Below are positions 9,750 to 29,873 of a DNA stretch of 48,989 nt, piece by piece. Source of the DNA: an uncultured Holophagaceae bacterium (lineage in GTDB: Bacteria; Acidobacteriota; Holophagae; Holophagales; Holophagaceae); assembly GCA_903863195.1 (NCBI GenBank), contig CAIPAY010000043.1:1-48989 (forward strand). Direction: 5' to 3'. The notes under the pieces are model-generated. The model did not search any database, was not told the DNA's origin, and saw only the letters and a list, made by a program, of their open reading frames with translations. Positions within the stretch are counted from its first letter, which is position 1, and every line of letters starts with the position of its first letter. A program made the position numbers and the translations under genes.

Positions 9750-10401
9750 GCCTGCCTTCTCGCGCTTCAGTCTGCCAGACCATCCTGGCAGATGGCCCGG
9801 GGTTCCGGGTCCCGGGGAAGAGGCCGAAGCCTCAACATAAAGGTTCAACCCCAGAGTAGGCATTCGGAGTGGACAATTTTTGTCCTCTGGGTCGGTGGGC
9901 ACTTGGACGGCAGGGGTGCCTCAGGGAACGCAAAGAAGATACCTCAGCATGATGCTGCTGATCGCTTTCTGCGGTGAGGTGTGGGAAACGCACAGCGTTT
10001 TCCAAGGGGTTGTGGTCAGGTTGAGGACCCAGAGGGCGGGCCATCAGCCCGTTGCCGCTAGGCAATCCGCAGGCTGTCCATGGCCCCGGCGGCTCTCCGC
10101 AGCGGGTGGGTCGGAGCGATAACTCAGGCCACAACCTGCCTCAAAATCATTGGCGCGTTCCGAATCGGGAGGGCGAATGGCCCGTCGAATCGGTCGGTCG
10201 AATGTCCCGTCGAATCGGTCGGTCGAATGCCCCGTCGAATCGGTCGGTCGAATGCCCCGTCGAATCAGTCGGTCGAATGTCCCGTCGAATCGGTCGGTCA
10301 AGTGTGGCGAAGGCTTATTTTTGAGCGCCGGGAAAAATTCCCCAGGGTAGATCCTCCGGGCATCCCCTGTTTTGAAGGCAGGGAGATGGTTGGAGTTCTC
10401 G
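9750..10401 (+). other. Gene-poor stretch with tandem repeats, upstream of addB
   Basis: No believable gene is present. The left half should hold the addB-addA promoter; I could not pick it with confidence. The right half holds the 25-bp tandem array described separately. Open frames across the array in several phases are by-products of a stop-free repeat unit whose length is not a multiple of three. Confidence 0.6.
10181..10304 (+). repeat. Five tandem copies of a 25-bp direct repeat
   Basis: The unit CCCGTCGAATCGGTCGGTCG followed by AATGY begins at 10181, 10206, 10231, 10256 and 10281, giving five head-to-tail copies with only one or two substitutions each; the last copy degenerates at its end. 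A partial diverged unit sits just before (about 10162-10180). There are no spacers, so this is not a CRISPR. The unit contains inner TCGA and CGGTCG repeats. It lies between the addB promoter region and the first mobilisation-type gene. Iteron-like protein binding or a replication-slippage array are both possible. Confidence 0.9.
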
Positions 10402-10797
10402 ATGAAGAGTTATGTTGTGCCTGACATGCCCAAGAGGAGTCCGGACGCCCTAGAAACCTTGGCGAGTTCACTGGGCCTGAAGAACTCCGCAGCCCTGCGA
10501 GCGGTGGTGGAGCAGTTGGCAACCGCCCAGTTGCTGCTCTTTGCCGAAATTCTGCAACCCCTGGTAGCGCGGCAGGTCGGCAGGCCATCGGTACCCTCAT
10601 CCGCCAAGAAGACCGAAACGGGACCTCTTCTTGTCAGCATCTCCGAGACCATGCGATTGCTCTCGATGTCACGGACCTCCGTGTATTTCCTGATGTCCTC
10701 AGGTCGCTTGACCTGGGTCAAACCGGGCGCTCACCGGAGGATCCGGATGGACTCCATCCACCGGATGCTGATGGAAGGGGACGCTCGCGCGGGGTAA
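10402..10797 (+). CDS. Excisionase-like helix-turn-helix protein
   Basis: This is a 131-residue DNA-binding protein. The C-terminal half is a MerR/excisionase-type winged helix (HTH_17): VSISETMRLLSMSRTSVYF, then GRLTWVKPGAHRRI with the usual basic wing, then a final helix. The N-terminal half (residues 1-60) is helical (DALETLASSLGLKNSAALRAV) and may dimerise. I chose the ATG at 10402 because a GGAG site lies nine bases upstream; a TTG at 10372 would add ten residues. Such proteins serve as recombination directionality factors or transcription factors of integrative elements, which fits the integrase 7 kb downstream. Confidence 0.68.
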   Translation: MKSYVVPDMPKRSPDALETLASSLGLKNSAALRAVVEQLATAQLLLFAEILQPLVARQVGRPSVPSSAKKTETGPLLVSISETMRLLSMSRTSVYFLMSSGRLTWVKPGAHRRIRMDSIHRMLMEGDARAG

Positions 10798-11277
10798 CCC
10801 TTCGCCTCTCCAAGACAATCGGGAACCTCCAAACATCATGAAACAGGAAAGCACCTTCACTTCTCCTAGTCGAGAGCCGGGTGGAACGGCGGTTGAGGAG
10901 GCCTCCATCAAGGTTCTCCTATAGGAGATGCCTGCGGCGATCTAGCGGTCCAGCCGTTCCTGCCGACATGAACGGCCTCTCGGGCCTCGAACGTGCCGTG
11001 TTCTAGGGTCCGTCCTTGGCGGCGAAGCGGTGGGTGGATGGTCTATTGCACACGCATGAGATCGCCGAAGAGGGTCAGCAGAGGGGAGGGCTGCGGCTTC
11101 CTCAGCCACGCAGGGCTTACTTCGGTCGCAGTGTCCACGCCCAGGCAAGGCTGCCCAAGCCGATACGAGCACAAAAAGGGGGCAGAACAGAGCAAGCGGT
11201 GCGATTTGGCCCGCAGCAATTTCGGCAGCCCTGAAGCTTTAGGTGAACTGGGGGTTCCCCCTTAACCGGAGCTCAGC
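10798..11277 (+). other. 480-bp stretch without a supported gene
   Basis: Only short open frames with no ribosome site and implausible composition occur here. The ribosome-binding region for the next gene (ACCGGAGCTC before 11278) is at its end. It probably holds the promoter of the operon beginning at 11278; no clear -35/-10 pair could be picked. Confidence 0.5.
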
Positions 11278-11946
11278 ATGACTGCCCGTCCGCCCTTCCC
11301 TGCCAACTTCCCCACATCGCCAGATGCACAGCTTTACACCACCAGGCGGATTCACGAGGAGCTTTCGCAGTTGTTGGCTCCAGCCCAACAGCTGGTCGCC
11401 GAATCGGCGGCCTCAACTATCGCGCCGAGGGAGTCTCCTCGCGAGGTGCCGCCGCCCGAGCGCCAAGGAGCGGATGAACCCAGGGCCCTCGATAACTGCC
11501 GAAGCTGCCTCCAGTTCGGTGCCTCTCGCGGAACCCTGTACTCGCTGATGAAGGCCGGCCTGCTCCGGTTCGTCATCGTAGGGCATCGCCGGGAAATCCA
11601 GCAAACCGATACCGAGCGCTTTCTCGGTGATGACCCCCGGGGCATAGGCAAAGGAGAGAGTATGCCGTTTTCAGCGCCGTCTTCCTACTACCCCGTCATA
11701 ACTGGGAGCCGCACCCTGGGATGGACGACACTGCGTTTCGTAGACCATCCCCGCGCAGACCGAACAAGGATGAGCAAGGCGAATCCGCAGGTTCGGTCAA
11801 GGTCCGGGGATGGTTCACGACCTCGCAGCACATCTCCCCGCAAGGGGGGTGTGCGTAGGGTGCTTACTCCTTCTCACCACCTCGTTACTCCTTCTCACCA
11901 CCTCGGCCCGGGCATCCAGCGCGGTCCCATGCCGGAGCAGAAATGA
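11278..11946 (+). CDS. Helix-turn-helix protein, first gene of mobilisation operon
   Basis: A 222-residue frame with a CGGAGC site upstream. Residues about 80-118 form an excisionase-type helix-turn-helix (FGASRGTLYSLMKAGLLRF, VGHRREIQQTDTERFL). The N-terminal part resembles that of the upstream HTH protein in layout: a helical region (RRIHEELSQLLAPAQQLV) then a Pro-rich linker. The last 100 residues are low-complexity and include the duplicated TPSHHLV segment encoded by a 21-bp direct repeat, so the natural C-terminus may be extended by decay. Its stop overlaps the next start (ATGA), indicating coupling. Confidence 0.55.
   Translation: MTARPPFPANFPTSPDAQLYTTRRIHEELSQLLAPAQQLVAESAASTIAPRESPREVPPPERQGADEPRALDNCRSCLQFGASRGTLYSLMKAGLLRFVIVGHRREIQQTDTERFLGDDPRGIGKGESMPFSAPSSYYPVITGSRTLGWTTLRFVDHPRADRTRMSKANPQVRSRSGDGSRPRSTSPRKGGVRRVLTPSHHLVTPSHHLGPGIQRGPMPEQK
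11864..11905 (+). repeat. Two tandem copies of a 21-bp direct repeat
   Basis: The 21-base unit begins TTACTCCTTCTCACCACC and ends TCG; copies occupy 11864-11884 and 11885-11905 with no mismatch. The unit is a multiple of three, so the reading frame of the HTH gene is kept, giving a doubled TPSHHLV segment. It lies about 300 bases before the relaxase gene, a position where transfer-origin repeats are sometimes found, but it could equally be a simple slippage duplication. Confidence 0.85.
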
Positions 11947-12200
11947 GCGAGCACAAACTGAAACGGAGTCCCAGCGAGGTCTTGGTGCACCGGATCGAGG
12001 CCGCATTGATTGGCAGGGCGTCCGGAGTCGTGAGGGTCGATGCTCGGCTGACAGGGTCTGTGGCGGACGCCTGGCGGGCACTGCGCGATGCCGCCCAAGG
12101 ACTCACCTTAGACGATTCGGCCCTACTGTCTGCGCTCATCCTGCATGGGTCAAGTAGTGTCCGAGCCACCCTCAGGAAAATCCACCTGGAAAGGAGCTGA
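11943..12200 (+). CDS. Small putative ribbon-helix-helix accessory protein
   Basis: This 85-residue protein starts with an ATGA overlap on the upstream stop and ends one base before the relaxase ATG. A strand-like segment (GVVRVDARL) followed by two predicted helices (SVADAWRALRDAAQ; LDDSALLSALILHG) fits the ribbon-helix-helix outline of small relaxosome accessory proteins that bind the transfer origin. That assignment rests on size, secondary-structure pattern and position directly before the relaxase, not on a recognised motif. Confidence 0.5.
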   Translation: MSEHKLKRSPSEVLVHRIEAALIGRASGVVRVDARLTGSVADAWRALRDAAQGLTLDDSALLSALILHGSSSVRATLRKIHLERS

Positions 12201-12201
12201 G

Positions 12202-14085
12202 ATGGACGTTCCCATGCGATATCACGACGGGCCCGGGCCCCTTTCACCTGAGGGCGCAGTCCAATACCTAGGGACGCATCTTCAGTCCGCGACTGAGGCT
12301 GGAAACCTAGCGCACCTGCCGGGCTATCTGACGCGGGGAGGACTGATTGCGCCAGTTGTGATGGACGCGGATCTTTGGCAGATGGTGGGGTGGGACGGCC
12401 ATGGGATTCCCCCCGATCGACTCATCCGAAACCTCTGTCAGGGTTGCAATCTCGAGGGCGATCGGCTGACGGGCAGCCGAAGCCTTTTCCAAGCGCCCCT
12501 CGAAATTGTCATTCCCTTCCCCTCCGAGCTGTCTGAGGCCATGCATTCTGACCCTGAAGCAGCGCGCGCGACCCTCAGAAAGGCTTTGGATACTACCATT
12601 TCGGAGCTGGAAAGGGCGGCGGTCAGGAAAAGATCCGGGAAAGGGCGCAAGGCCCAACCCGATTGGGCGCCAGCCAGGGTGCTTGCCCTGGGTTATCTCC
12701 ATGCCGAAAATCGAGCGAAGGAGAACCACCTGCATGCCCATTGTGAGATATTTCGGCCTGCCCTAGATGAGGAGGGGAAGTGGCGCACCCTTGACAATGG
12801 ACGCCACGTCTCACGGTTTTCGATTCCCGGGGGCGTCCGAGAACTGGTCACGACTGCAATCGTCATGGAAGCTGCTAGGTGGGGCTACCGAGTGGAGATC
12901 CTTCCGGGGAAGGCCAAGGGTCCAGGCCCACACGGGGCGCGGGTGACCTCGCCAGATGGACACGTTTTCGAGAGGGGGTCGGTGCGCCGGGAACGAAGGC
13001 TCACCATCCTCGCCGCCCAAGCCATGGTCAAGGCCTGTGGCGCAACTCCACTCACTCCGAAGGAGGTGGAACTGGTCAGGAAAGAGACAGGTCGCTTCCC
13101 TCACGAGCTGAAAGGGATTCGACTCATGGCTCACCTTGAAAAAAAGCTGTCGGCTTTGGGCTTCCTTGATGATTCCGGTCGTATCGGGGAATCCCGCCAG
13201 GTCATGGCGGCCCTGTCCAAAATGGAAGAGGCCATGGCCGAGGCTCAAGTTTTCTTGGTGGATGTCCCAATGTCGCGGGCCGATGAGAGCGCGCAAATTG
13301 TCAAGTCGAAGCGACAGGCCCTGGTCGCGCAGGTCCCAGAATTGAGGGCGAACACCCATCAGGCGCGCATCCGCTGGACAGGTGCCTACGACTCGTTGCT
13401 TGAACTTGTTGCGACGCACCCGGAAGGCCTGCGAACCGACAACCTTAACAAGAACTCCAGAGACAATCTCTCCAAGCTGAAGAGGGCAGGCATTCTCCTC
13501 GGTGAGAAAGTCGGTGGCCGAATGACATACCGCCTCGGACTCCCAGGAGAGGAGCGCTTAGCCCGTAGTCGGGATGAACAGAAGGAGGCGGAAAAGTCGG
13601 TCCTGAAAATGGTCCATCTTTCCATGGCCGGGGCCTCGTCCCCGTCCCAGGTCCGCGGCCGCCTCGAGGCCATAGGCATTCAGACAAACCCGAAGGAGGG
13701 CCGCTTTGAATTGGGAGCGGCGGGGCGGACAGTCAGAGAGCCCGACCTCATCGCTTTGACGGGAATCCGGCCCATGACGCCGGTCTCGCCGGATCTTCCG
13801 TGGTGGGAAAGCTGGTGGGCTCGCCGGCACGAACTGCCGACGATCTTGGCCCGCGCCATCCTTCGCCCAGCCGAGGTGCTTGCCAGATGGGGGGAGTCGT
13901 TGGGGCAGCAGGCCGCTGAGGTGATTGCCGTCCGGGTGCGGGACCTTAAAGGTCGCAGGGCCAGTGAAACTGCCGCTAGGAGGACAGCCGCGGTCGATCG
14001 AGATCAGCCGGGTGCTATCACCCGGCAGCAGGACCGAATCCCCACAGTCCCCGTAGGAGGTCCGAGCCATGGACGCAGAATCTAA
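12202..14085 (+). CDS. TrwC/MobF-like relaxase domain protein
   Basis: This 627-residue protein has a strong AAGGAG site before the ATG at 12202. The metal-binding histidine cluster of relaxases is visible as H176-x-H178-x-H180 in ENHLHAHCEIF, followed by the TrwC-family hallmark ALDEEGKWRTLDNG. Upstream stretches (YLTRGGLIAP, GDRLTGSRSLFQAPLEIVIPF) align with the region between the N-terminal tyrosines and the fold core. N-terminal tyrosines near residues 22 and 42 are candidates for the nicking residue. There is no C-terminal helicase with Walker motifs, unlike TrwC/TraI (about 1000 residues or more), so this is a relaxase-only protein as in mobilisable elements. The C-terminal 250 residues look like a winged-helix region (LRTDNLNKNSRDNLSKLKRAG) plus a basic tail. 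Expected role: nicking at an origin of transfer. Neighbouring conjugation pore genes are absent. Confidence 0.65.
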   Translation: MDVPMRYHDGPGPLSPEGAVQYLGTHLQSATEAGNLAHLPGYLTRGGLIAPVVMDADLWQMVGWDGHGIPPDRLIRNLCQGCNLEGDRLTGSRSLFQAPLEIVIPFPSELSEAMHSDPEAARATLRKALDTTISELERAAVRKRSGKGRKAQPDWAPARVLALGYLHAENRAKENHLHAHCEIFRPALDEEGKWRTLDNGRHVSRFSIPGGVRELVTTAIVMEAARWGYRVEILPGKAKGPGPHGARVTSPDGHVFERGSVRRERRLTILAAQAMVKACGATPLTPKEVELVRKETGRFPHELKGIRLMAHLEKKLSALGFLDDSGRIGESRQVMAALSKMEEAMAEAQVFLVDVPMSRADESAQIVKSKRQALVAQVPELRANTHQARIRWTGAYDSLLELVATHPEGLRTDNLNKNSRDNLSKLKRAGILLGEKVGGRMTYRLGLPGEERLARSRDEQKEAEKSVLKMVHLSMAGASSPSQVRGRLEAIGIQTNPKEGRFELGAAGRTVREPDLIALTGIRPMTPVSPDLPWWESWWARRHELPTILARAILRPAEVLARWGESLGQQAAEVIAVRVRDLKGRRASETAARRTAAVDRDQPGAITRQQDRIPTVPVGGPSHGRRI

Positions 14086-17666: not shown

Positions 17667-19013
17667 TCACTTCCCGTTTCCCTGCTTGATGGCCAGCGTC
17701 TCCACGGGTGTCCCGTCGTGGATGCCCAGCTTGGGGGCCAGCGCCCGGATCGCGTCAGCCATGGCAGAAGGCGCCAGGTGGCCGTAGTGCTTCTCCACCA
17801 TCCGAGTATCCGAGTGCCCGAGCTGCGCGGCGACAAACGCAAGAGGCACCCCGTTGTTCACCAGGCCGGAGGCGTGGGTATGGCGCAATTCGTGGAACGT
17901 GAGGGTCGCGAGCTTGGCGGCCTCGCAGGCCTCCTTCATGCACCGGGCCGGTTCTGACTTGCGCCAGGGACGGTTCAACTTGGGGCTTGTCCAGTTCCGG
18001 GTTTCGTTGGACTCACGCAGGAACATGGGTTCGTCGGGGAGCCGTCCCGCTGTGAGGGCCTTGAAGTAGATCTGCCCTTCCTCCGTCAGCACCACATAGC
18101 GCGGGTGCGGGTTGTTCTTGGAGGGGGCGATGTAGATCTTTCCGTTCGGCGCGTTGAAGTCTGAGTTCACCAAGCGCGACAGCTCGCCGAAGCGCGCTCC
18201 CGTGAACAGCCCCCCCTGGACGAGGCGTCGGAAGTCTGGCGGGCAGACATTCACCAGCCGCTGGGCCTCCTCGGGTGTAAGGAACCGCTGCCGGGAGGCC
18301 GTGGTGCCTTCAAAGGGTTTCACTTCGCGCCAGGCTTCCGCGTTGGCCCGGGTCATGCCGCGATGCTTCACGAAGTTCAGGATGGCCTTCAGTGCGGCCA
18401 GGATGCGGTTGGCGGTGGCCCTGCGGGCGCGCTTCTGGTCATCGGTGACTGGAGCCGGCCTGGAGGCGGGTTGCTCGCCTTTCCTGGTGCGAACGCGGGC
18501 TGGAGCCTTGGCCAGCGCCGCGTGCCATTTCTCGATCTTCCATTGCGTGAGGTCGGCGACCTTGCAGGCGCCGAAGGCGGGAAGGATGTGGGCAGTGACA
18601 TTCAGTTTGGTGGAGGCGATGCTCTTCTTGCCGCGGCGCTCAGCGTCCTCGGCGTAGGCGATCCAGGCCTGCTCCACGGTGAGTGGGCCCAGCCGGTGCG
18701 GTTCTCCCGCGACCGCGGACTTCATCTCCTTGAACCAGTCGCGGGCCTTGTCCTGAGCCTGGTCGAAGGAAAGCACCGTGTCCTCGTTGGCCTCCAGGAA
18801 GTCATCGGCCGTGCCGAGGGCCTGCCTCAGGTACTTCTTCGTATTCATGTCCATGAACCTGGCGCTCCAGGTCCCGGAGGCTCCGCTCTTCGGCCGGTAG
18901 TAGCCGATCGACTGGCCGATCCCGATCGCCGTCCAGTGGGGGTCCTTCTGGGCGGTCAGCTTCAGCCGTTTGCTACGGTTCTCAAACTTGTTGACCTCTT
19001 TATTCCTGACCAT
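17667..19013 (-). CDS. Tyrosine site-specific integrase
   Basis: This 448-residue phage/island-type integrase has an arm-binding N-terminus (residues 1-110), a SAM-like core-binding domain and a C-terminal catalytic domain. Catalytic residues are visible: Arg in FTGARFGELSRL, His and Arg in TFHELRHTHASG, His in QLGHSDTRMV and the nucleophilic Tyr in EKHYGHL. I chose the ATG at 19013 since a GGAGG lies five bases before it; an ATG four codons upstream is the alternative. It is transcribed away from the tRNA-Glu fragment 140 bases to its right, the standard layout for an element integrated at a tRNA 3' end. It should catalyse integration and, with an excisionase such as the HTH proteins upstream, excision. 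Confidence 0.92.
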   Translation of the reverse strand: MVRNKEVNKFENRSKRLKLTAQKDPHWTAIGIGQSIGYYRPKSGASGTWSARFMDMNTKKYLRQALGTADDFLEANEDTVLSFDQAQDKARDWFKEMKSAVAGEPHRLGPLTVEQAWIAYAEDAERRGKKSIASTKLNVTAHILPAFGACKVADLTQWKIEKWHAALAKAPARVRTRKGEQPASRPAPVTDDQKRARRATANRILAALKAILNFVKHRGMTRANAEAWREVKPFEGTTASRQRFLTPEEAQRLVNVCPPDFRRLVQGGLFTGARFGELSRLVNSDFNAPNGKIYIAPSKNNPHPRYVVLTEEGQIYFKALTAGRLPDEPMFLRESNETRNWTSPKLNRPWRKSEPARCMKEACEAAKLATLTFHELRHTHASGLVNNGVPLAFVAAQLGHSDTRMVEKHYGHLAPSAMADAIRALAPKLGIHDGTPVETLAIKQGNGK

Positions 19014-19151
19014 TAGGTCCTCCATCCGTAATTTATCCGTATTTCACGTCCCCAAATGCCTCCGATCACCATGGGACACTATTTTTGTAACTCACGCAAT
19101 ATCTTATTTTTGAATCGTCCGGAACTGAACGTTTAAACAGTATTTAACAAT

Positions 19152-19662: not shown

Positions 19663-21123
19663 ATGTCTCGACCCCGCGTGGTCATCCTCGGCGCCGGCGT
19701 GGCCGGCCATACCAGCGCCGCCTTCCTCAAGAAGTGGTTCGGCCGGGAGGCGGAGGTGGTCGTCATCTCTCCCCGCCCCGACTACAACTGGATCCCATCC
19801 AACATCTGGGTGGGCGTGGGTCTGCTCAAGGCTTCCCAAGTGATGTTCTCCCTGCCGCCGGTCTACGCCAGGAATGGCATCACCTTCCACCAGGCCAAGG
19901 CGACGGTCCTGCATCCCGAGGGCGAGGGCGAGGACACCACCCCCTTCGTGGAGGCCGAGTCCACCCTGGAGGGCCACGCCGGGGAGCGTCTCCGCGTGCC
20001 CTACGACTACCTGATCAACGCCACGGGGCCGAAGCTGTCCTTCGAGTCCACGCCAGGGCTGGGACCCAAGGGACACAGCCTGTCGGTCTGCACCGCGCCC
20101 CATGCGACGGAGGCTTCCGCCGCCCTGGATGAGGCTGTGGCCCGGATGAAGAAGGGCGATCGGCAGCGCTTCCTGGTGGGCACTGGCCATGGCACCTGCA
20201 CCTGCCAGGGTGCCGCCTTCGAGTACATCGTGAACCTCGAGTTCGAGCTGCGGGCGCGGGGGGTCCGCAACCTGGCCGACATCACCTACCTCACCAATGA
20301 GTTCGAGCTGGGCGACTTCGGCATGGACGGCATCCACATCCGCCGCGGAGGCTACGTCACGCCCAGCAACATCATGACGGAGTCTCTGTTCGCGGAGCGG
20401 GGCCTGCGCTGGGTCACCCAGGCCCACGTGCAGGGCCTCGAGGCAGGCCGCGCTTCCCTGGAGTTCCTCGATGGCAGCGAGGGCGAAGAGCGCTTCGACA
20501 TGGCCATGCTGCTGCCGCCCTTCAAGGGCGTGGGATTGCAGGCCCTGGATCGCCAGGGCGCCGACATCACCGACCGGCTCTTCGCGCCCTCGGGCTTCAT
20601 GAAGGTCGATGCGGACTATCAGGCCAAGCCCTTCGAGGCCTGGCGGGCTTCCGACTGGCCCAGCACCTACCAGTCCCCGGCCTATCCGAACCTCTTTGCG
20701 GCGGGGATCGCCTTCGCCCCGCCCCACCCGGTCTCCCGGCCCCGGCAGAGCCCCAAGGGCACCAACATCACGCCGGCGCCACCTCGCACGGGCATGCCGA
20801 GTGCCATGATCGGCAAGGCCGTGGCCCGGAGCATCTACGACATGGTCTGGGGCGCAAAGCGGCCCACCCACACCGCCTCCATGGCCGAGATCGGCGCAGC
20901 CTGCGTAGCCTCGGCGGGGTCCAACCCCTTCAAGGGGACGGCTGCCTCCATCACGGTGTTCCCCATCGTTCCCGATTTCGAGCGCTATCCCGAGTACGGC
21001 CGAGACCTGAACCACACCTTCGGCGAGATCGGCCTGGCGGGGCACTGGATCAAGATCCTGCTCCACCACCTCTTCCTCTACAAGGCGAAGATGCGCACCT
21101 TCTGGTCCCTCATTCCGGAGTAA
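19663..21123 (+). CDS. sqr: Sulfide:quinone oxidoreductase-like flavoprotein
   Basis: This 486-residue FAD protein of the SQR/FCSD family oxidises sulfide to sulfane sulfur and passes electrons to membrane quinone. The FAD-binding motif VVILGAGVAGHTSA lies at residues 5-18, and YDYLINATGPKL marks the second FAD contact. Cysteines for the sulfide site are in GHGTCTCQGAAFE near 177 and in SVCTAP near 145, with another in GAACVAS near 417. The C-terminal stretch WIKILLHHLFLYKAKM is the amphipathic membrane anchor common in SQR. A GGAGG site precedes the ATG. The exact SQR type cannot be fixed by eye. A 56-residue gene follows after three bases, and the sigma-54 regulator gene comes next, suggesting a sulfur-linked locus. 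Confidence 0.82.
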   Translation: MSRPRVVILGAGVAGHTSAAFLKKWFGREAEVVVISPRPDYNWIPSNIWVGVGLLKASQVMFSLPPVYARNGITFHQAKATVLHPEGEGEDTTPFVEAESTLEGHAGERLRVPYDYLINATGPKLSFESTPGLGPKGHSLSVCTAPHATEASAALDEAVARMKKGDRQRFLVGTGHGTCTCQGAAFEYIVNLEFELRARGVRNLADITYLTNEFELGDFGMDGIHIRRGGYVTPSNIMTESLFAERGLRWVTQAHVQGLEAGRASLEFLDGSEGEERFDMAMLLPPFKGVGLQALDRQGADITDRLFAPSGFMKVDADYQAKPFEAWRASDWPSTYQSPAYPNLFAAGIAFAPPHPVSRPRQSPKGTNITPAPPRTGMPSAMIGKAVARSIYDMVWGAKRPTHTASMAEIGAACVASAGSNPFKGTAASITVFPIVPDFERYPEYGRDLNHTFGEIGLAGHWIKILLHHLFLYKAKMRTFWSLIPE

Positions 21124-21372: not shown

Positions 21373-21388
21373 TGCATAATGCAATGCA
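21373..21388 (+). promoter_or_regulatory. TGCA-N3-TGCA palindrome at regulator start
   Basis: TGCATAATGCA followed by ATGCA lies 11 bases before the chosen ATG of the sigma-54 activator. The same 11-bp TGCA-N3-TGCA pattern recurs twice downstream of the gene, before the target operon. It is a likely binding site of the activator, giving autoregulation. Confidence 0.5.
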
Positions 21389-21398
21389 GGGGGCCGCC

Positions 21399-22760
21399 AT
21401 GAAGTATTTCGCCCGCAAGGGACCACCAGGCGCCGCCTCGGCCACGCTCTCCCTGGACCTCCGCACGATCCTGGACTCCATCAACGATGGCGTCTTCACC
21501 GTGGACGACGACTTCCGCATCACGTCGTTCAACCGGGCCGCCGCCGAGATCATCGGCATGCCGCCCGAGCAGGCTCTGGGCCAGCAGTGCTGGAAGGTCT
21601 TCAACGCGGACATCTGCGAGGGCTCCTGCGCCCTCAAGGAGACCATGACCACCGGGTCGCCCCTGCTCAACAAGCACGTGAACATCCACACGGCCGCCCA
21701 GAAGAAGGTCTCCATCAGCGTGAGCACGGCCCTGCTGCGCGACCAGACCGGCAAGGTGGTGGGCGGCGTCGAGTCCTTCCGCGACCTGACCCTGGTGGAA
21801 GAGCTACGGAAGGCCGTGGAAGGCCGCGCCAGCTTCCAGCACATGACCTCGGCCAACCACCAGATGTGGGAGATCTTCAAACTCATGCCCCTCATCGCCC
21901 AGAGCGACAGCACGGTGCTGATCCAGGGCGAGAGCGGCACCGGCAAGGAGCTCATGGCCCGGGCCATCCACGACCTCAGCGCCCGGGCCCGGAAGCCCCT
22001 GGTCACGCTCAACTGCGGGGCCCTGCCCGACACCCTGCTCGAGGCAGAGCTGTTCGGCCACAAGGCGGGGGCCTTCACGGATGCCAAGCGGGACCGCAAG
22101 GGGCGCATCGCCGCCGCCGAGGGCGGCACGCTGTTCCTGGATGAGATCGGTGACATCTCGCCGGCGCTCCAGGTCCGCCTCCTCCGCGTCCTGCAGGAAC
22201 GGACCTACGAGCCGCTGGGCTCCAGCGACTCGCTGAAGGCGAACGTCCGCTTCCTCGCGGCCACCCACCGCGATCTCCGCACCGAGGTCAAAGAGGGTCG
22301 CTTCCGGGAGGACCTGTTCTACCGGCTGAACGTCATGCAGATTGCAATCCCCCCCCTGCGGGAGCGGAAGGAAGACATCCCCGCCCTGGCCCACCGGTTC
22401 CTGGACCGCCAGACCGCCCTCCACGGCAAACAGCTCCAGGGCTTCAGCCCCGAAGCCATGGATCACTTGATGCGCCACGCCTGGCCCGGCAACATCCGGG
22501 AGCTGGAGAATGCGGTAGAACATGCCTTCGTGCTCTGCCGACAGGGCCAGATCCGGCCCCAGGACCTGCCGGCCGCCCTGCAGGATGCGGCCTCCGGGCC
22601 CCTCTCCGAAGGCGGCACCTTCAGAAGCAAAGACTTGCGCAGCCAGGAGATGGCCTCCATTCAGGCCGCCCTGGAGCGCCACGCCGGGAACCGGACCGCT
22701 GCGGCGCGGGAGCTGGGGATCCACCCCACCACCCTGTGGCGCAAGCTCCGCCGTACCTGA
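21399..22760 (+). CDS. Sigma-54-dependent activator, PAS-AAA+-Fis HTH
   Basis: This is a 453-residue enhancer-binding protein. An N-terminal PAS domain (about 22-130) starts ILDSINDGVFTVDDDFRI and contains CWKVFNADICEGSC, so a redox or metal cofactor bound by the cysteines is conceivable. The AAA+ domain has Walker A GESGTGKE near 175, a GAFTDA variant of the sigma-54 contact loop GAFTGA near 224, Walker B GGTLFLDEIG and sensor FREDLFYRLNV. The C-terminal Fis-type HTH (ERHAGNRTAAARELGIHPTTLWRKL) binds the enhancer. I chose the ATG at 21399, with a GGGGG stretch upstream, rather than the distant GTG at 21312. It lies between SQR and the octaheme-cytochrome operon on the same strand and most likely activates the operon promoter at 22882. 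Confidence 0.88.
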   Translation: MKYFARKGPPGAASATLSLDLRTILDSINDGVFTVDDDFRITSFNRAAAEIIGMPPEQALGQQCWKVFNADICEGSCALKETMTTGSPLLNKHVNIHTAAQKKVSISVSTALLRDQTGKVVGGVESFRDLTLVEELRKAVEGRASFQHMTSANHQMWEIFKLMPLIAQSDSTVLIQGESGTGKELMARAIHDLSARARKPLVTLNCGALPDTLLEAELFGHKAGAFTDAKRDRKGRIAAAEGGTLFLDEIGDISPALQVRLLRVLQERTYEPLGSSDSLKANVRFLAATHRDLRTEVKEGRFREDLFYRLNVMQIAIPPLRERKEDIPALAHRFLDRQTALHGKQLQGFSPEAMDHLMRHAWPGNIRELENAVEHAFVLCRQGQIRPQDLPAALQDAASGPLSEGGTFRSKDLRSQEMASIQAALERHAGNRTAAARELGIHPTTLWRKLRRT

Positions 22761-22769
22761 GCGAGGCAC

Positions 22770-22814
22770 TGCAATCTGCATGAATCGAGGTCTTAAAGAG
22801 GACTGCAAATTGCA
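22770..22814 (+). promoter_or_regulatory. Two enhancer palindromes (TGCA-N3-TGCA)
   Basis: TGCAATCTGCA at 22770-22780 and TGCAAATTGCA at 22804-22814 share the 11-bp pattern found before the activator gene. Their centres are 34 bp apart and lie about 107 and 73 bp upstream of the -24 element. That is the usual location of upstream activator sequences for sigma-54 systems. They probably bind the Fis-type HTH of the adjacent activator. Confidence 0.6.
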
Positions 22815-22881: not shown

Positions 22882-22896
22882 TGGCCTTGCAATTGC
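22882..22896 (+). promoter_or_regulatory. Sigma-54 (-24/-12) promoter of octaheme operon
   Basis: TGGCCT-N5-TTGC matches the consensus TGGCAC-N5-TTGC with the exact 12-base GG to GC spacing. It lies 232 bases before the first gene of the operon and directly behind a sigma-54 activator gene. Confidence 0.68.
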
Positions 22897-22994
22897 ATTT
22901 GAAGGGTTAGTTGGGGTGGCTTTACAGCCCCAGCCGTTCATGGACCCGGCCCCCTGGGCTATCCGTCCACCCCCCAGCCCGGAAGGTCCGTGAG

Positions 22995-23014
22995 GACGGT
23001 CCCCTTGGACCGTC
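22995..23014 (+). promoter_or_regulatory. Stem-loop in the operon leader
   Basis: A perfect 8-bp stem GACGGTCC/GGACCGTC closes a CCTT loop, inside a GC-rich leader of about 220 bases between the predicted transcription start and the first gene. No U tract follows. It may stabilise the message or hold a control element; no known riboswitch was recognised. Confidence 0.45.
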
Positions 23015-23127
23015 GCCCGGGGTCTGCCGGATCACCCCTTCAAGAACTCCCGAGTGCCGCTGCCAGACACGGCTGAGCCGTCTCTGCCCAGGGTCTGCCC
23101 GGGGCCTGCCCCACCCCGGAGGTTGTC

Positions 23128-24063
23128 ATGCGGAACATCGGATTGAGTCGAGTGCTGGGCGTCCTCCTGGCCGGTCTGGCCCTGGCCCTTCCGGCCTTTG
23201 CAGCGCCTCCGAAGGCTCGGGAAGGCATGCTCACCGTTGCCGTGGCCGTGACCGACCTGGAGCCCATCGTCCGGGCCGTGGGCGGCAGCCAAGTCGAGAC
23301 CGTGAACCTGTTCAAGGGCTGCATCCTGAGGAAGGACCTGCAGGTGGAGCCCGCCGCCAAGACCCGGCTGGCCGCCTCGGCAGCCATCGTCTGGACCGGC
23401 TTCCTGAACGAGTCCGCAGCGATCTCATCTGCGCTCCGCGCCGCGGGAGCGACCACCCCGAAGGCGGCCGAGCCGAAGTGGATCGATGTGTCGAAGGGCG
23501 CGGCGCGGACCAACCTGCCCACCTCCAACTGTGGTGGCTACGTGGACCCGGCCTACGCGGCGGGCGATCCGTTCTTCTGGCTCAACCCCACCAACGGCGG
23601 GCTCATGGCCCGCACCGTCGCCCGCGGCCTGGGCGAGCTGAGACCGGCCAGCCGGGCACTGTTCATGGCCAATGCCGAGGCCTTCGAGAAGGCCCTGGCC
23701 CGGGACATCGAGCATTGGAAGGCGGCGCTCAAGCCCATCCAGGGCATGCGAGTATTCGCGGCCCAGTGCGGCTGGCAGAACTTCTCCGCCGCCGTGGGGG
23801 GGCCAGCCTTCGTGACCTGCAAGGGCACGCCGGACGAGCCGCCGAGCCCCCAGGCTCTGCTCCTGCACATCCGCGGCATGAAGGCCGAGCTCATCCTGGT
23901 GGATCCCAACACCCCCCAGGACTACGTCGAGGCCTTCCGAGAGCACTCGAAGCTCAAGGTGCTCGAGGTGCCCTCCTCCATCGAGGGGCTCCGCGGTGCC
24001 GCCACCTACAGCGCCCTCTTCGAAAACCTGGTGAAGGTGCTCCAGGGCCAGGCCAAGCACTAA
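23128..24063 (+). CDS. ZnuA-like periplasmic protein lacking metal-site histidines
   Basis: This 311-residue cluster A-I solute-binding protein (zinc/manganese type) has a signal peptide (first 25 residues, ending AFA). The fold is recognisable from LEPIVRAVGG, LQVEPAAKTRLAASAAIVWTGFLNE, WLNPTNGGLMARTVARGL and the C-terminal LRGAATYSALFENL. The canonical metal ligands are changed: the PHxYEP His is replaced in the KDLQVEP region, the HxW His reads FFW at 149-151, and the HxAF His reads QCGW at 213-216. Four cysteines (65, 135, 214, 231) are present instead, two of them near the lost histidines. No ABC permease or ATPase is adjacent. It heads the sigma-54 operon with an octaheme cytochrome, so binding a sulfur species, heme or thiophilic metal is more likely than zinc uptake. 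That role is inference. Confidence 0.7.
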   Translation: MRNIGLSRVLGVLLAGLALALPAFAAPPKAREGMLTVAVAVTDLEPIVRAVGGSQVETVNLFKGCILRKDLQVEPAAKTRLAASAAIVWTGFLNESAAISSALRAAGATTPKAAEPKWIDVSKGAARTNLPTSNCGGYVDPAYAAGDPFFWLNPTNGGLMARTVARGLGELRPASRALFMANAEAFEKALARDIEHWKAALKPIQGMRVFAAQCGWQNFSAAVGGPAFVTCKGTPDEPPSPQALLLHIRGMKAELILVDPNTPQDYVEAFREHSKLKVLEVPSSIEGLRGAATYSALFENLVKVLQGQAKH

Positions 24064-24094: not shown

Positions 24095-24577
24095 TTGATC
24101 GAGCTCAACCTGGATCCCCGCGGGGAGCAAGGCCCGGCGCCGGCCGTGGCCTTCACCCTCAGGCCCATCGGCCTCGTCCACGCAGCCCCAGTTAAGCGGG
24201 CCCGGCTGCCCAAGTACTTCGTGCCCCGGGGACGCGCCGCCCTGGAGCTGTTCCACCCCTATGCGCCAGGCCTCCAGGGTCTCTACGAAGGCCTGGACCT
24301 CTGGATCATCACCTACCACGCCCTCTCCGGCCGTATCTCCGGCGATGCGTGGCAGGGCGGGGAAGGCCGCCCCGGCGTCTTCGCCACCACGGCCCTCCAG
24401 CGGCCGAATCCCATCGAGTTCCTGCGGGCCAGGGTCATGACCGTGGACCCAGCGCAGGGCCTTCTCCACGTGGAAGGGCTGGATGCGGAGGATGGCGCAC
24501 CCATCCTCGACATCCGCCCCGCCACCTCCCCTCACCACCGCCTCACCCAGCCCAGCGAAGAAAGGGACTCCAGATGA
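24095..24577 (+). CDS. TsaA/TrmO-domain protein in redox operon
   Basis: This 160-residue protein has the TrmO/VirR beta-barrel fold: FTLRPIGLVHAAPVKRA at the start, TTALQRPNPIEFLRARV in the middle, and LHVEGLDAEDGAPILDIRPA near the end. In TrmO these are RPIG, RPNP and LDGTPVLDIKPY, which methylate N6 of the modified A37 in tRNA-Thr using SAM. This copy is shorter, and a second, fuller TrmO is encoded at 47200-47733, so this one is probably repurposed for a small-molecule or protein substrate. It starts at TTG 24095 behind GAGG; its stop overlaps the next start (ATGA). Confidence 0.68.
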   Translation: MIELNLDPRGEQGPAPAVAFTLRPIGLVHAAPVKRARLPKYFVPRGRAALELFHPYAPGLQGLYEGLDLWIITYHALSGRISGDAWQGGEGRPGVFATTALQRPNPIEFLRARVMTVDPAQGLLHVEGLDAEDGAPILDIRPATSPHHRLTQPSEERDSR

Positions 24578-24966
24578 AGGTCGCCATCGCCGTCAACAAC
24601 CGATCTGAGGTCTCGGCGCATTTTGGACGCAGTCCCGCCTTCCTCGTCTTCCAGGTAGAGCAGGGCCAGATCCTGCACCGCGAGGTCCGGCCGAATGACC
24701 AGGCCGGAGCAAGCCACGAGCACGGCGGCGCGCAGGCGCACCCCCACGACCACAACCGGTTCGTCCAGCTGCTGGGGGACTGCCAGGCCGTGATCGGCCT
24801 CGGCATGGGCCCCGGCGCACGCCAATCGCTGGAGGCCTCCGGCATCACCGTCTGCCTGCTGGAAGCGCCCACCTCCCCCGAGGAGGCCGCCATCCGCTTC
24901 GAGACCGGGCAGCTGCCCGCTGGTCCCCGCAGCTGCGGTGGGGGGCACGCCCACCCGCACCCCTGA
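24574..24966 (+). CDS. His-rich NifX/NifB-C-like (Fe-Mo cofactor fold) protein
   Basis: This 130-residue protein of the dinitrogenase iron-molybdenum cofactor family has MKVAIAVNNRSEVSAHFGRS at the start, where the family has VAV....G.V..HFG.a. LLGDCQAVIGLGMGPGARQSLEASGI follows, the usual nucleotide-fold core. A His-rich loop (HEHGGAQAHPHDHN) and tail (CGGGHAHPHP) could bind metal. No nif genes are nearby, so a stand-alone metal or cluster carrier such as MTH1175-type proteins is the likely analogue. The start overlaps the TsaA-domain gene by four bases. Confidence 0.75.
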   Translation: MKVAIAVNNRSEVSAHFGRSPAFLVFQVEQGQILHREVRPNDQAGASHEHGGAQAHPHDHNRFVQLLGDCQAVIGLGMGPGARQSLEASGITVCLLEAPTSPEEAAIRFETGQLPAGPRSCGGGHAHPHP

Positions 24967-25090: not shown

Positions 25091-26707
25091 ATGCCGCACC
25101 CCCCTCGAAGACCTTCGCCGCCGCTGCTGAGGCGGGCTCTGCAGGCCCTGCTTGGACTCCTGGCCCTGCCCTTCGCCCTGGCCCAGGAGCCGGCGGCGGC
25201 TCCGCCCACGGCGGGCCACGGCTCCTACACGATCCTCCATGTGGCCAAGAGCCGCCGGCAGACCTCGGATCACAGCAAGTTCCAGGTGCTGAAAGGCCCC
25301 TTCAAGGACAGCGATGGCCCCGCGGTGACCCGGGCCTGCCTCACCTGCCACATGAAGGCGGCGGAGCAGGTCATGGCCACATCCCACTGGACCTGGAACA
25401 TCGCGAAGGACGGCAAGGACGGCTTCGGCAAGTCCACGCTCCTGGTGAACAACTACTGCATCTCCATCATCGGCGGCAACACCGAGTCCTGCGCACGTTG
25501 CCATGCGGGCTACGGATTCAAGGACAAGAGCTTCGACTTCACCAAGCCGGAGAACGTGGACTGCCTGGTCTGCCACGACACCACCGGCGACTATGAGAAG
25601 GAGAAGGCCGGCTGGCCCAATCCCGGCGTGTCCCTGGCGGAAGTCGCCCAGAAGGTCGGCGCGCCCACCCTGAAGAACTGTGGCGTGTGCCACTTCTTCG
25701 GTGGCGGCGGCGACGCCACCAAGCACGGGGACCTGGATGACACGATCCTGAAGGCCCCTCGTGCTGAGGATGTCCACATGTCCAGGCAGGGCGCGGGCAT
25801 GGACTGCATCGACTGCCATGCCTCGGACGCGCACAAGGTGGGCGGCCCGAACTATGTCGTCCCCGCCGACCGGCGGGAGCAGGCCAAGTTCGCCGGGGAG
25901 AGCGTCTCCCGGATGTCCTGCGCCGCCTGCCACAGCGACTCGCCTCACAAGTCCTACATCCTGAACCGCCACTACCAGAAGGTGGCCTGCCAGACCTGCC
26001 ACATCCCCACCTACGCGCGCGGCACGCTGCCCACCAACACCTTCTGGGACTGGGCCTCCGCTGGGCGGCTGAAGAACGGGCGGGGCTACAAGGAAGAGGA
26101 CGCGAACGGCTACGAGAAGTACAACAGCATCCACGGCGAGATGATCTGGGCGCGCAACGTCCGGCCCAGCTACGTCTGGTACAACGGCACCCTGAAGTTC
26201 ACCCGCCTGACGGATCGCATCACCGTGCCCACGGATGGCCGGGTCATCCTGAACCCTGCGGAAGGCTCCTACACCGATCCCAACGCCAAGATCTGGCCCT
26301 TCAAGTTCCACGAGGCCACCCAGCCCTTCGACCCGATCCTGCAGCGCTTCGTGGCTCCCTACACCGCGGGGCCCAAGGGCTCCGGCGCTTACTGGGGCGA
26401 CTGGGACTGGGACATCGCGATCCAGAAGGGCATGGCGACGGCCGGTCTGCCCTACAGCGGCCAGCACAGCTTCGTGAAGACCACCATGCTCTGGCCCGTC
26501 ACCCACATGGTGGCCCCCAAGGAGCAGGCCCTTGCCTGCACGGAGTGCCACAAGCGCAACGGGCTCCTGGCCCAGGTTCCCGGGTTCTACCTGCTGGGCC
26601 GGGACCACGGCACTGGCGTCGACCTTCTCGGGTTCGGAGTGATCCTCCTGACCATCCTCGGCGTGGGCATCCACGGCTTCATTCGCTTTTCCCACGGACG
26701 CCACTAG
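25091..26707 (+). CDS. Octaheme c-type cytochrome, tetrathionate reductase family
   Basis: This 538-residue periplasmic multiheme protein has eight CxxCH motifs starting near residues 83, 134, 158, 197, 239, 277, 300 and 483. The spacing, with the last heme far downstream, fits the octaheme tetrathionate reductase (OTR) family. A signal peptide covers about the first 31 residues (LLGLLALPFALAQ) and a C-terminal helix (LLGFGVILLTILGVGIHGF) anchors it in the inner membrane. Known OTR reduces tetrathionate, nitrite or hydroxylamine in vitro. I chose the ATG at 25091 with GGAG eight bases upstream; longer upstream frames have no signal peptide. The cytochrome b gene begins eight bases after the stop, so a quinol to cytochrome b to octaheme chain is likely. 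The physiological acceptor is unknown. Confidence 0.88.
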   Translation: MPHPPRRPSPPLLRRALQALLGLLALPFALAQEPAAAPPTAGHGSYTILHVAKSRRQTSDHSKFQVLKGPFKDSDGPAVTRACLTCHMKAAEQVMATSHWTWNIAKDGKDGFGKSTLLVNNYCISIIGGNTESCARCHAGYGFKDKSFDFTKPENVDCLVCHDTTGDYEKEKAGWPNPGVSLAEVAQKVGAPTLKNCGVCHFFGGGGDATKHGDLDDTILKAPRAEDVHMSRQGAGMDCIDCHASDAHKVGGPNYVVPADRREQAKFAGESVSRMSCAACHSDSPHKSYILNRHYQKVACQTCHIPTYARGTLPTNTFWDWASAGRLKNGRGYKEEDANGYEKYNSIHGEMIWARNVRPSYVWYNGTLKFTRLTDRITVPTDGRVILNPAEGSYTDPNAKIWPFKFHEATQPFDPILQRFVAPYTAGPKGSGAYWGDWDWDIAIQKGMATAGLPYSGQHSFVKTTMLWPVTHMVAPKEQALACTECHKRNGLLAQVPGFYLLGRDHGTGVDLLGFGVILLTILGVGIHGFIRFSHGRH

Positions 26708-26715
26708 GAGGCAGC

Positions 26716-27339
26716 ATGCGACGCGTTGTTCTGTATGAAGGCTTCGAGCGTTTCTGGCACTGGGCCCAGGCCCTGCTCATCCTCACGATGATGCTCACGG
26801 GCTTCGAGGTTCGGGGCCTGGGGCTGCACCTCTTCGGGTTCCAGCGGGCCGTGGCCCTCCACAACATCCTGGCCGTGACCCTGCTGGTCCTCATCGTCTT
26901 CGCCATCTTCTGGCACATCACCACCGGCGAGTGGCGCCAGTACATCCCGACCCGAAAGTTCCTCCGCGAGATGATCGCCTTCTACGTCACGGGGATCTTC
27001 AAGGGCGCGCCCCACCCGGTGCGCAAGCACCGCATGGCCAAGCTGAACCCCCTGCAGCGGCTCGCCTACTTCGGCTTCAAGGTGCTGATCATTCCCGTGC
27101 AGGTCACCAGCGGCGCCCTCTACTACTACTACCCCAACCTGCAGCATGCCCTGGGCTGGCCGCCGGCTTCGCTCTGGGTCATCGCCGTGGTCCATGTCCT
27201 CGGGGCCTTCGGCCTGGTGGCCTTCCTCATCGGCCACGTCTATCTGACGACCACCGGGCACACCCCCTTGACCAACATCAAGGCGATGCTCACCGGCTGG
27301 GAGGAGCTTGAGGACGATGCGTATTTCGATGAGACCTAG
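26716..27339 (+). CDS. Membrane cytochrome b, quinol-oxidising partner
   Basis: This 207-residue integral membrane protein of the cytochrome b561/thiosulfate reductase PhsC-like family has a GGAGG site before the ATG. Four helices are visible with candidate heme-ligand histidines in FERFWHWAQALLIL, VALHNILAV, FWHITTGEW, VVHVLGAFG and IGHVYLTTTGHT. It ends in an acidic cytoplasmic tail. Its role, inferred from the operon, is to pass quinol electrons to the anchored octaheme cytochrome encoded just upstream. Confidence 0.85.
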   Translation: MRRVVLYEGFERFWHWAQALLILTMMLTGFEVRGLGLHLFGFQRAVALHNILAVTLLVLIVFAIFWHITTGEWRQYIPTRKFLREMIAFYVTGIFKGAPHPVRKHRMAKLNPLQRLAYFGFKVLIIPVQVTSGALYYYYPNLQHALGWPPASLWVIAVVHVLGAFGLVAFLIGHVYLTTTGHTPLTNIKAMLTGWEELEDDAYFDET

Positions 27340-27488: not shown

Positions 27489-28817
27489 ATGGGCGATCCC
27501 CTTTTCTGGCACCGTTTGCAGTTCGGGTTCACGGCCACCTACCACTACCTGTTTCCGCAGCTCACCATGGGGCTGGCGCTCGTCATCGTCATCTTCAAGG
27601 CCCTGGGGCTCCGGACCAGTGAGGCGCGGTACAGCGACGCCGCCCGGTTCTGGATCCGCATCTTCGGCATCAACTTCGCTGTGGGCGTGGTGACGGGCAT
27701 CCCCCTCGAGTTCCAGTTCGGCACCAACTGGGCGCGGTTCTCGCATCTCTCCGGGGGCATCATCGGCCAGACCCTGGGCATGGAGGGCATGTTCGCCTTC
27801 TTCCTCGAGAGCAGCTTCCTGGGCCTGCTGATCTGGGGAGAGAAGAAGCTCTCGCCGAAGGGTCATTTTGGCGCAGCCGTAGCGCTGTGGCTGGGGAGCT
27901 GGCTGTCCGGCTACTTCATCATCGCCACCAACGCCTTCATGCAGCACCCGACGGGTTTCGCGGTGGCCGCGGACGGGACGCTGCAGCTCACCAGCTTCTG
28001 GGCCTTCCTGCTCAATCCCTGGGCCCTGGGCCAGTACGCGCACAACATGATCGCGGCGGTGGTCACCGGCTCCTTCGTGGTGGCCGCTGTCGGGGCCTAC
28101 TGGACCCTCAAGGGCATCCATCCCGTGCAGGCGAATCTGAACCTCCGCACGGGCACCATCCTGGGCCTGGTCTTCAGCGTCCTCGTCGCCTTCCCCACCG
28201 GCGACCTTCAGGGGAAGCTCGTCGCGAAGCACCAGCCCATCACCCTGGCCGCCATGGAAGGGCGCTTCGAAAGCGGGCCCCGGGCGGCGCTCACGCTCAT
28301 CGGGCAGCCCGATGTCACCCTGCACAAGATTGAGAACCCCATCAAGGTGCCCGCGGTGCTCAGCTTCATCGCCTTCGGGACCTTTTCGAGCAATGTGAGA
28401 GGCCTGCTGGAGTTTCCGCAGGACCAGTGGCCCCAGAATATCGAGCTGCTCTACTACGGCTTCCACATCATGGCTGGCCTCGGCACTCTCATGATCGGGC
28501 TCATGGCCCTGGCCGTATTCCTGCTCTGGCGCGGCAAGCTGGCCACCACCCGACCCCTCCTGTGGGTTGTGATGCTGGCGGTGCCCTTCCCCTACATCGC
28601 CACCACGGCCGGCTGGGTCGTGACGGAGTTCGGCCGCCAGCCCTGGCTCATCTACGGTGTCCTGCGCACGACCCAGGGCAGCTCGCCCCTGGTCCACGCG
28701 GGCCACACGGCCTTCACCACCCTGGGCTTTGCGGGGATCTTTGTCGTGCTCTCCATGCTGTGGCTGTTCCTGATCGGGCGAGAGCTCGCCCACGGCCCCG
28801 AATCCCCGGCGCACTAG
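27489..28817 (+). CDS. cydA: Cytochrome bd oxidase subunit I (CIO type)
   Basis: This is a 442-residue membrane protein. His19 in TATYHYLF is the heme b595 ligand; GMEGMFAFFLESSFLG holds the conserved glutamates of the proton path; GQYAHNMIAA holds the b558 His; GRQPWLIYGVLRT is the family signature near the end. The short Q-loop (total length below the 522 of E. coli CydA) marks the cyanide-insensitive-oxidase branch. An AGGAGG site precedes the ATG. It couples quinol oxidation to O2 reduction. The 149-base gap from the cytochrome b gene could carry its own promoter; no clear one was identified. Confidence 0.95.
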   Translation: MGDPLFWHRLQFGFTATYHYLFPQLTMGLALVIVIFKALGLRTSEARYSDAARFWIRIFGINFAVGVVTGIPLEFQFGTNWARFSHLSGGIIGQTLGMEGMFAFFLESSFLGLLIWGEKKLSPKGHFGAAVALWLGSWLSGYFIIATNAFMQHPTGFAVAADGTLQLTSFWAFLLNPWALGQYAHNMIAAVVTGSFVVAAVGAYWTLKGIHPVQANLNLRTGTILGLVFSVLVAFPTGDLQGKLVAKHQPITLAAMEGRFESGPRAALTLIGQPDVTLHKIENPIKVPAVLSFIAFGTFSSNVRGLLEFPQDQWPQNIELLYYGFHIMAGLGTLMIGLMALAVFLLWRGKLATTRPLLWVVMLAVPFPYIATTAGWVVTEFGRQPWLIYGVLRTTQGSSPLVHAGHTAFTTLGFAGIFVVLSMLWLFLIGRELAHGPESPAH

Positions 28818-28826
28818 GAGACCCCC

Positions 28827-29873
28827 ATGGAAACCCTCTGGTTCTGGCTCGTCTCCGTGATGGTCGCGATCTACGTGGTGATGGACGGCTTCGACTTCGG
28901 GGCGGGCATCCTGCATCTGGTCGTCGCCAAGACCAACGAGGAGCGCCGGCAGGTGCTCGGCGCCATCGGTCCCCTCTGGGACGGCAACGAGGTCTGGCTG
29001 CTCGCGGGAGGCGGCTCCCTGTTCCTGGCCTTCCCCAAGGTGCTGGCTTCGGGCTTCTCCGGCTTCTACCTCGCCATGTGGCTGGTGGTCTGGAGCCTCA
29101 TGCTCCGCGGCATCTCCATCGAGTTCCGCTCCCACGTGCAGGACGGCCTCTGGCGGCACTTCTGGGATGCCACCTTCGCGGTCTCCAGCGTGCTCCTGCC
29201 CGTGCTGCTAGGCGCGGCGCTGGGCAACGTGCTCCGCGGCGTGCCGCTGGATGGGACCGGCTACTTCAGCATGCCGCTCTGGACCGACTTCCAGCTTGGC
29301 CCGCAACCCGGGATCCTGGACTGGTACACCGTGCTGATCGGCGTCTTCGCCCTGGTCACCGTGACCGCCCATGGCGCCCTCTTCCTGGCCTGGAAGACGG
29401 AGGGACCCGTGCATCTCCGCACCAAGCACCTCGCGCCGAGGCTCTGGCTCCTGGTGCTGGCGGTCTGGGTCGCAGCCAGCGCCGCCACTGCCCGCGTAAA
29501 CCCGGCGATCCTCCACAACCTGCCCGGGGCGCCCCTGGCCTGGATTGCGATCCTGCTCTACCTGGCCGGCCTGGGGCTGGTCTTCCTCGGACTCGGGCGC
29601 GAGCGCTACCTGCTGGCCTTCCTCGGCTCCGGGGCCTTCATCCTCGGCCTGCTGGCGGCCAGCGCCGCCTGCGTCTTCCCCGTGATGCTTAGGTCCACCC
29701 TGAATTCCGCCTTCGACCTCACGGCCCTGAATGCCAGCGTGGGCGGCCACGGGCTCCGCACGGGCCTGGTCTGGTGGCTGCTCGGCTTCCCCCTCGCCCT
29801 GGGCTACGTCGCCTTCCTCTTCCGATTCCACCGGGGCAAGGTGGCCGCCGCCGAGGAAGGTGAAGGCTACTGA
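28827..29873 (+). CDS. cydB: Cytochrome bd oxidase subunit II
   Basis: This 348-residue membrane protein starts nine bases after cydA with a GGAG site. The start METLWFWLVSVMVAIYVVMD then GFDFGAGIL is the CydB hallmark, followed by GPLWDGNEVWLLAGGGSLF. About eight or nine hydrophobic helices follow. It pairs with CydA to form the oxidase. No CydX-like small subunit frame was found between cydB and the convergent gene 16 bases away. Confidence 0.95.
   Translation: METLWFWLVSVMVAIYVVMDGFDFGAGILHLVVAKTNEERRQVLGAIGPLWDGNEVWLLAGGGSLFLAFPKVLASGFSGFYLAMWLVVWSLMLRGISIEFRSHVQDGLWRHFWDATFAVSSVLLPVLLGAALGNVLRGVPLDGTGYFSMPLWTDFQLGPQPGILDWYTVLIGVFALVTVTAHGALFLAWKTEGPVHLRTKHLAPRLWLLVLAVWVAASAATARVNPAILHNLPGAPLAWIAILLYLAGLGLVFLGLGRERYLLAFLGSGAFILGLLAASAACVFPVMLRSTLNSAFDLTALNASVGGHGLRTGLVWWLLGFPLALGYVAFLFRFHRGKVAAAEEGEGY

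Follow-up and report, generated by a model that had tools for sequence, protein, structure and literature searches.

The canonical ligand site of cluster A-I solute-binding proteins consists of three histidines together with a glutamate, an aspartate or a water molecule, and has a flexible loop nearby (PMC8900738). In a stretch of DNA of 48,989 nucleotides from an uncultured Holophagaceae bacterium, analysed at its full length and referred to here as the window, we describe a protein that shares with ZnuA, AztC and TroA (PF01297) the two-lobe fold, the backbone helix that links the lobes, the export signal and, in its predicted model, the flexible loop before the second ligand position. Unlike these proteins, it has all three histidines replaced, carries four invariant cysteines, lacks a permease partner and is encoded in a respiratory operon. 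We refer to it as the 4-Cys protein.

Orphan solute-binding proteins with a recruited cysteine also occur beside the respiratory enzyme of arsenite oxidase operons. These AioX-type proteins work with a membrane sensor kinase and come from a different binding-protein family; the activator of the 4-Cys module is, by contrast, predicted to be a cytoplasmic PAS-AAA+ protein. Sud of Wolinella is a small rhodanese-fold protein, whereas the 4-Cys protein has the ZnuA fold. The likeness that we draw to Sud is one of proposed role only, that of a carrier in the periplasm that works through cysteine next to a reductase of sulfur compounds, and claims no relation: Sud, a periplasmic sulfur carrier, binds polysulfide and presents it to polysulfide reductase (PMC2628731). 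On the enzyme side the locus compares with the octaheme tetrathionate reductase modules (TIGR04315), as the cytochrome encoded downstream in the window scores over the cut-off of that family.

No such protein turned up in a literature search on octaheme cytochromes with ZnuA and on cluster A-I proteins with cysteine. As far as that search shows, the 4-Cys clade has not been described before; it is a solid and conserved branch of a known family that has given up transport. Family profiles label its members as zinc-uptake proteins, very likely wrongly for the whole clade, and they show clearly how a transport protein, with a remodelled ligand site and no transporter left, has been taken over by an anaerobic respiratory module. 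For the natural substrate of the octaheme 'tetrathionate reductase' family, an inducible binding protein transcribed with the reductase would be directly informative: the ligand of the 4-Cys protein would be a strong clue to the substrate of the reductase.

A cluster A-I protein with a rewritten ligand site

The 4-Cys gene (23128..24063, forward strand) is an open reading frame of 311 amino acids, its stop codon falling within these coordinates; it is preceded by a ribosome-binding site (GGAGG, 23118-23122) and its product carries a Sec-type signal peptide, recognised by inspection. The Pfam ZnuA profile PF01297 matches the protein over its whole length (1.2e-21; 78 bits, cut-off 29), while none of the NCBIfam AztC, ZnuA, MntC and SloC families accepts it, the best being AztC at 38 bits against a cut-off of 350. 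An AlphaFold model built from 39 sequences (pLDDT 84, pTM 0.82), which superseded a weak one from nine close sequences (pLDDT 68), has as its best structure matches the solved ZnuA, PsaA, YfeA and AztC, all of the ZnuA/AztC/TroA class. Judged by profile and modelled fold, the 4-Cys protein is a cluster A-I solute-binding protein.

Aligning 39 proteins, comprising 17 distinct members of the 4-Cys family and 22 canonical relatives from Acidobacteriota genomes, revealed how its ligand site differs: firstly, the three ligand histidines, present in all 22 canonical proteins, are replaced by Lys69, Phe149 and Gln213; secondly, the fourth, acidic ligand position, a glutamate in 21 of the 22, is Asp259, the only part of the canonical set of three histidines plus Glu/Asp or water that the window protein retains; thirdly, the Pro, His and Glu of canonical proteins at positions 68, 69 and 232 have given way to basic residues. 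The protein has four cysteines and no others. The earlier note had read from the window that the three histidines are missing and that Cys65, Cys135, Cys214 and Cys231 are present, exactly as the alignment shows.

In the topology of the predicted model, Cys65 and Cys135 belong to the N-lobe and Cys214 and Cys231 to the C-lobe. Cys65 (codon 23320..23322, +) precedes the first histidine position by four residues, in the loop that follows strand 56-60, and Cys135 (23530..23532, +) lies in a flexible loop before the second; this loop is of low confidence in the model (pLDDT below 50 at 132-139), and its place matches that of the flexible loop of ZnuA. Cys214 (23767..23769, +) adjoins Gln213 at the third histidine position, and Cys231 (23818..23820, +) follows strand 227-229 directly. 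Because the cysteines follow the C-terminal ends of beta-strands, the model topology predicts them on the cleft side.

Most mature 4-Cys proteins contain exactly these four cysteines. An even number, two to a lobe, in an exported protein would suit one structural or redox disulfide in each lobe, and the basic residues gained at 68, 69 and 232 a cleft that binds an anion such as thiosulfate or tetrathionate via Arg68, Lys/Arg232 and Gln213. We consider this unlikely, since all four cysteines stand at binding-site loops, Cys214 right beside the third-ligand position, and a side-branch of the family (L087, L092) has extra cysteines around the site, including a CxxC at 211/214.

The 4-Cys family is conserved and monophyletic

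All four cysteines are found in 17/17 members of the 4-Cys family and in 0/22 canonical proteins, and the three ligand histidines in 0/17 and 22/22, respectively, a residue pattern far beyond chance. The members come from at least three Acidobacteriota families. Orthologues in the same genus (70-92% identity) and distant relatives (42-59% identity) alike retain the four cysteines, and the 4-Cys and canonical groups form separate clades with support of 100/100. The earlier note had called for this comparison with operon homologues and had allowed that they might retain the histidines, making the window's copy a decayed one; the cysteines proved conserved throughout and the histidines are absent from every member.

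A functionless zinc-binding protein, decayed or misread, would agree with the loss of the histidines and the disappearance of a permease. Such a reading is nonetheless scarcely credible, and we rejected it: dN/dS of the 4-Cys gene within the genus is 0.14-0.22, indicating purifying selection, the cysteines are invariant down to 42% identity, and operon and promoter are conserved. The best explanation of these data is that 4-Cys proteins are a functional, monophyletic subfamily of cluster A-I proteins outside metal transport.

When 84,980 genomes were scanned with two peptide motifs, every record with a relative was labelled Acidobacteria, Holophagaceae/Geothrix, Aminicenantes or Terriglobia; the scan overlooks divergent members such as L087, L091 and L092, whose motifs differ, and is no proof of absence elsewhere.

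The 4-Cys protein has no transporter

The observation that no transporter accompanies the gene, made beforehand for the window, extends to the genome. No transporter gene lies near the 4-Cys gene in the window, and an ABC-3 permease (PF00950) was detected neither in the window's genome, which is 93% complete (13 of 14 control genomes score in that search), nor in ten further genomes of the same genus that carry the 4-Cys gene. The single ZnuA-family protein of the window's genome is the 4-Cys protein itself. In congeners, canonical paralogues with the histidines are encoded directly before an ABC-3 permease gene, and in one genome, G387, a canonical binding protein and the accompanying transporter are encoded about 10 kb from the 4-Cys gene; with both types in one genome, the 4-Cys and canonical proteins are paralogues with different roles. 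A role other than transport is thus well supported for the 4-Cys protein.

The 4-Cys gene leads a respiratory module

The 4-Cys gene had also been thought to open a cytochrome operon, and the genes that follow it agree: all on the forward strand, they encode a TrmO_N-like protein (24095..24577; 60 bits against the TrmO cut-off of 93), a NifX/dinitrogenase FeMo-co-like small protein (24571..24966; PF02579), an octaheme c-type cytochrome of the tetrathionate reductase family (25112..26707; TIGR04315, 532 bits, cut-off 375) with eight CXXCH motifs in its translation, a cytochrome b561/PhsC-like membrane subunit (26707..27339; PF01292, with a PRK15006 match below cut-off) and the bd-type quinol oxidase CydAB (27489..29873), a part of the module that is confined to the window and its closest relatives. 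Before the 4-Cys gene stands that of an activator with PAS, sigma-54 AAA+ and Fis-type HTH domains assigned by Pfam (21399..22760, +). The window holds a second TrmO-like gene at 47323-47727 on the reverse strand; given this and the low score of the module copy, the latter may not be the tRNA enzyme.

All 4-Cys carriers in the genus keep the core of the module, the NifX-like gene being missing in some. Of the 37 genomes compared within the genus, 9 carry the 4-Cys and octaheme genes together, 8 the octaheme gene only, none the 4-Cys gene only and 20 neither (p = 2e-4, a value that is indicative only because genomes within one genus are not independent). Further afield, L090, from another family, has activator, NifX-like, 4-Cys, octaheme, b561 and TrmO-like genes in a changed order. 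The partner itself changes in other families. L051, L053 and L054 encode another cytochrome, about 710 amino acids long with 7-8 CXXCH motifs (L051:8879-11011, L053:2219-4381, L054:8879-11005), followed by a b561 gene; it has no good family match, its hits to ExtN and TIGR04315 being weak and far under cut-off. The 4-Cys gene of L055 and L091 is followed by genes for a PhsA/PsrA-type molybdoenzyme, NrfD-like subunits and a barrel protein; the molybdoenzyme of L055 scores 610 bits to PhsA, just under the cut-off of 694, and that locus also encodes an FeS subunit, its accessory subunits being PsrB/NrfD-like. In L087 a second 4-Cys copy lies in a cluster (5928-13464, reverse strand) with two CGGC-domain proteins, a NifX-like protein, a UbiE-type methyltransferase, an old-yellow-enzyme-like flavoprotein, a ferritin/Dps-like protein and a cysteine/cystathionine synthase-like enzyme.

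Seven octaheme loci of the same genus (L119 to L125) are without the 4-Cys gene. In all of them a monoheme cytochrome c and a DUF3373 barrel precede the octaheme gene in its place, and together with b561 these genes make up an alternative octaheme module. Two of these loci contain rhodanese genes, that of L119 encoding an exported, multi-domain protein with a CXXCH motif and that of L121 its relative.

Multiheme cytochromes neighbour the gene in most 4-Cys loci, which would be expected if the protein assisted the insertion of heme into a multiheme cytochrome or the maturation of the latter. Such a function is nevertheless very improbable: the seven octaheme modules just described manage without the gene, the PhsA-type loci L055 and L091 have only a monoheme cytochrome near it, and no histidine or methionine is invariant in the 17-member family, whose only invariant candidate heme ligands are the cysteines and one tyrosine.

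The module has a conserved enhancer-type promoter

Upstream of the 4-Cys gene is a sigma-54-type -24/-12 promoter, TGGCCTTGCAATTGCA (GG-N10-GC; 22882..22897, +), whose GG and GC are invariant in 10/10 aligned upstream regions; its score in the window is not above that of shuffled sequence, so that the case for it rests on conservation and position. The gap between the activator and 4-Cys genes also contains two dyads of the TGCA-N3-TGCA type, TGCAATCTGCA (22770..22780, +), a likely activator site, and TGCAAATTGCA (22804..22814, +), 34 bp from the first. A pair at this spacing, with up to two mismatches, occurs once in the 3.6-Mb genome, and single dyads number 5 in the window where 0.9 are expected; L051 and L056 again have paired dyads, at a spacing of 31 bp. 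A further TGCAN3TGCA dyad (21373-21383) lies just before the likely activator start (21399), which suggests autoregulation. With GG-N10-GC, upstream dyads and an adjacent AAA+ activator gene all in place, the 4-Cys module has a dedicated sigma-54 control region of the ordinary enhancer-dependent kind. As the activator is predicted to be cytoplasmic, no sensing route is evident, a point against the reading favoured below.

Promoter and start codon are separated by a leader of about 220 nt (22898-23117) with a hairpin, GACGGTCC...GGACCGTC; the leader is partly conserved among close relatives and had no match in an Rfam search.

A proposed sulfur ligand for the cleft

The exchange of the histidines for four conserved cysteines, the loss of the transporter and the lead position in a cytochrome module together point to a ligand that is probably sulfur-loving and not zinc. 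The earlier note had named a thiophilic ligand, heme or polysulfide. Its preference for a thiophilic ligand over zinc is well supported; between heme, polysulfide and another soft ligand sequence cannot choose, although heme is the weakest candidate and, for want of an invariant histidine or methionine, was reduced to a minor possibility. The note did not cover the sigma-54 promoter with its enhancer, the lack of the permease across the genome or the partners other than octaheme cytochromes at other loci.

We tentatively favour a transport-free protein that binds a soft sulfur ligand through its thiols and shuttles it, induced together with the reductase. The two cysteines of each lobe would line the interdomain cleft along with conserved aromatic residues, and the protein would be made when the reductase is made and act in the periplasm. 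The ligand may be sulfane sulfur, polysulfide or a thiosulfate-derived persulfide, which would be concentrated at, or presented to, the quinol-linked reductase much as the unrelated Sud does for polysulfide reductase. On this reading, sulfane sulfur is probably what the thiol-lined cleft would bind.

This sulfur reading follows from the partners, which are sulfur-compound enzymes or members of their families. The theme recurs across unrelated partners: the octaheme tetrathionate reductase family, PhsA with PsrB/NrfD-like subunits, and the cysteine/cystathionine synthase-like neighbour in L087; to these may be added an SQR-like gene upstream in the window (a weak match) and the rhodanese genes of the two octaheme modules that have no 4-Cys gene. 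Octaheme cytochromes of this family act on nitrite and hydroxylamine as well, so an octaheme partner is no proof of sulfur, and with the natural substrate of the family uncertain the argument from partners is a moderate one.

The same cysteines could instead form a tetrathiolate, or mixed Cys/Asp, site between the lobes for a thiophilic metal or metalloid such as Cu(I), As(III) or Fe/Fe-S, serving sequestration or cofactor delivery to the cytochrome. The ancestor binds metal, the cysteines stand two and two across the metal cleft, Asp259 is retained, the module has NifX-like genes, the second copy, in L087, has CGGC-domain and ferritin/Dps-like neighbours, and the side-branch is richer still in cysteine. 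We nevertheless regard a metal site as possible but rather unlikely: the module genes include none recognised as a metalloregulator or as serving metal efflux or resistance, the partners include enzymes that differ widely in their cofactors, and the aromatic substitutions at the old ligand site are untypical of metal sites.

Extending the favoured reading, a thiol-dependent carrier of soft sulfur, 4-Cys proteins might be periplasmic carriers of a new class: a metal-uptake binding protein would have been turned into a Venus-flytrap that uses two thiols from each lobe to capture sulfane sulfur or a polysulfide chain and pass it to octaheme or PhsA-type reductases, and the class would be widespread in anaerobic Acidobacteriota; we put this forward as a doubtful proposal.

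Genes upstream of the activator

Upstream of the activator, the window encodes an FAD-dependent sulfide:quinone reductase-like protein (19663-21123, +) with a weak match to NCBIfam SQR type III. Genes 81-87% identical to it lie near L052, which has a 4-Cys gene, and L120, which has none. A few hundred bases further upstream, on the opposite strand, is an integrase-like open reading frame of 452 amino acids (17667-19025, -) that has the look of a tyrosine recombinase by eye.
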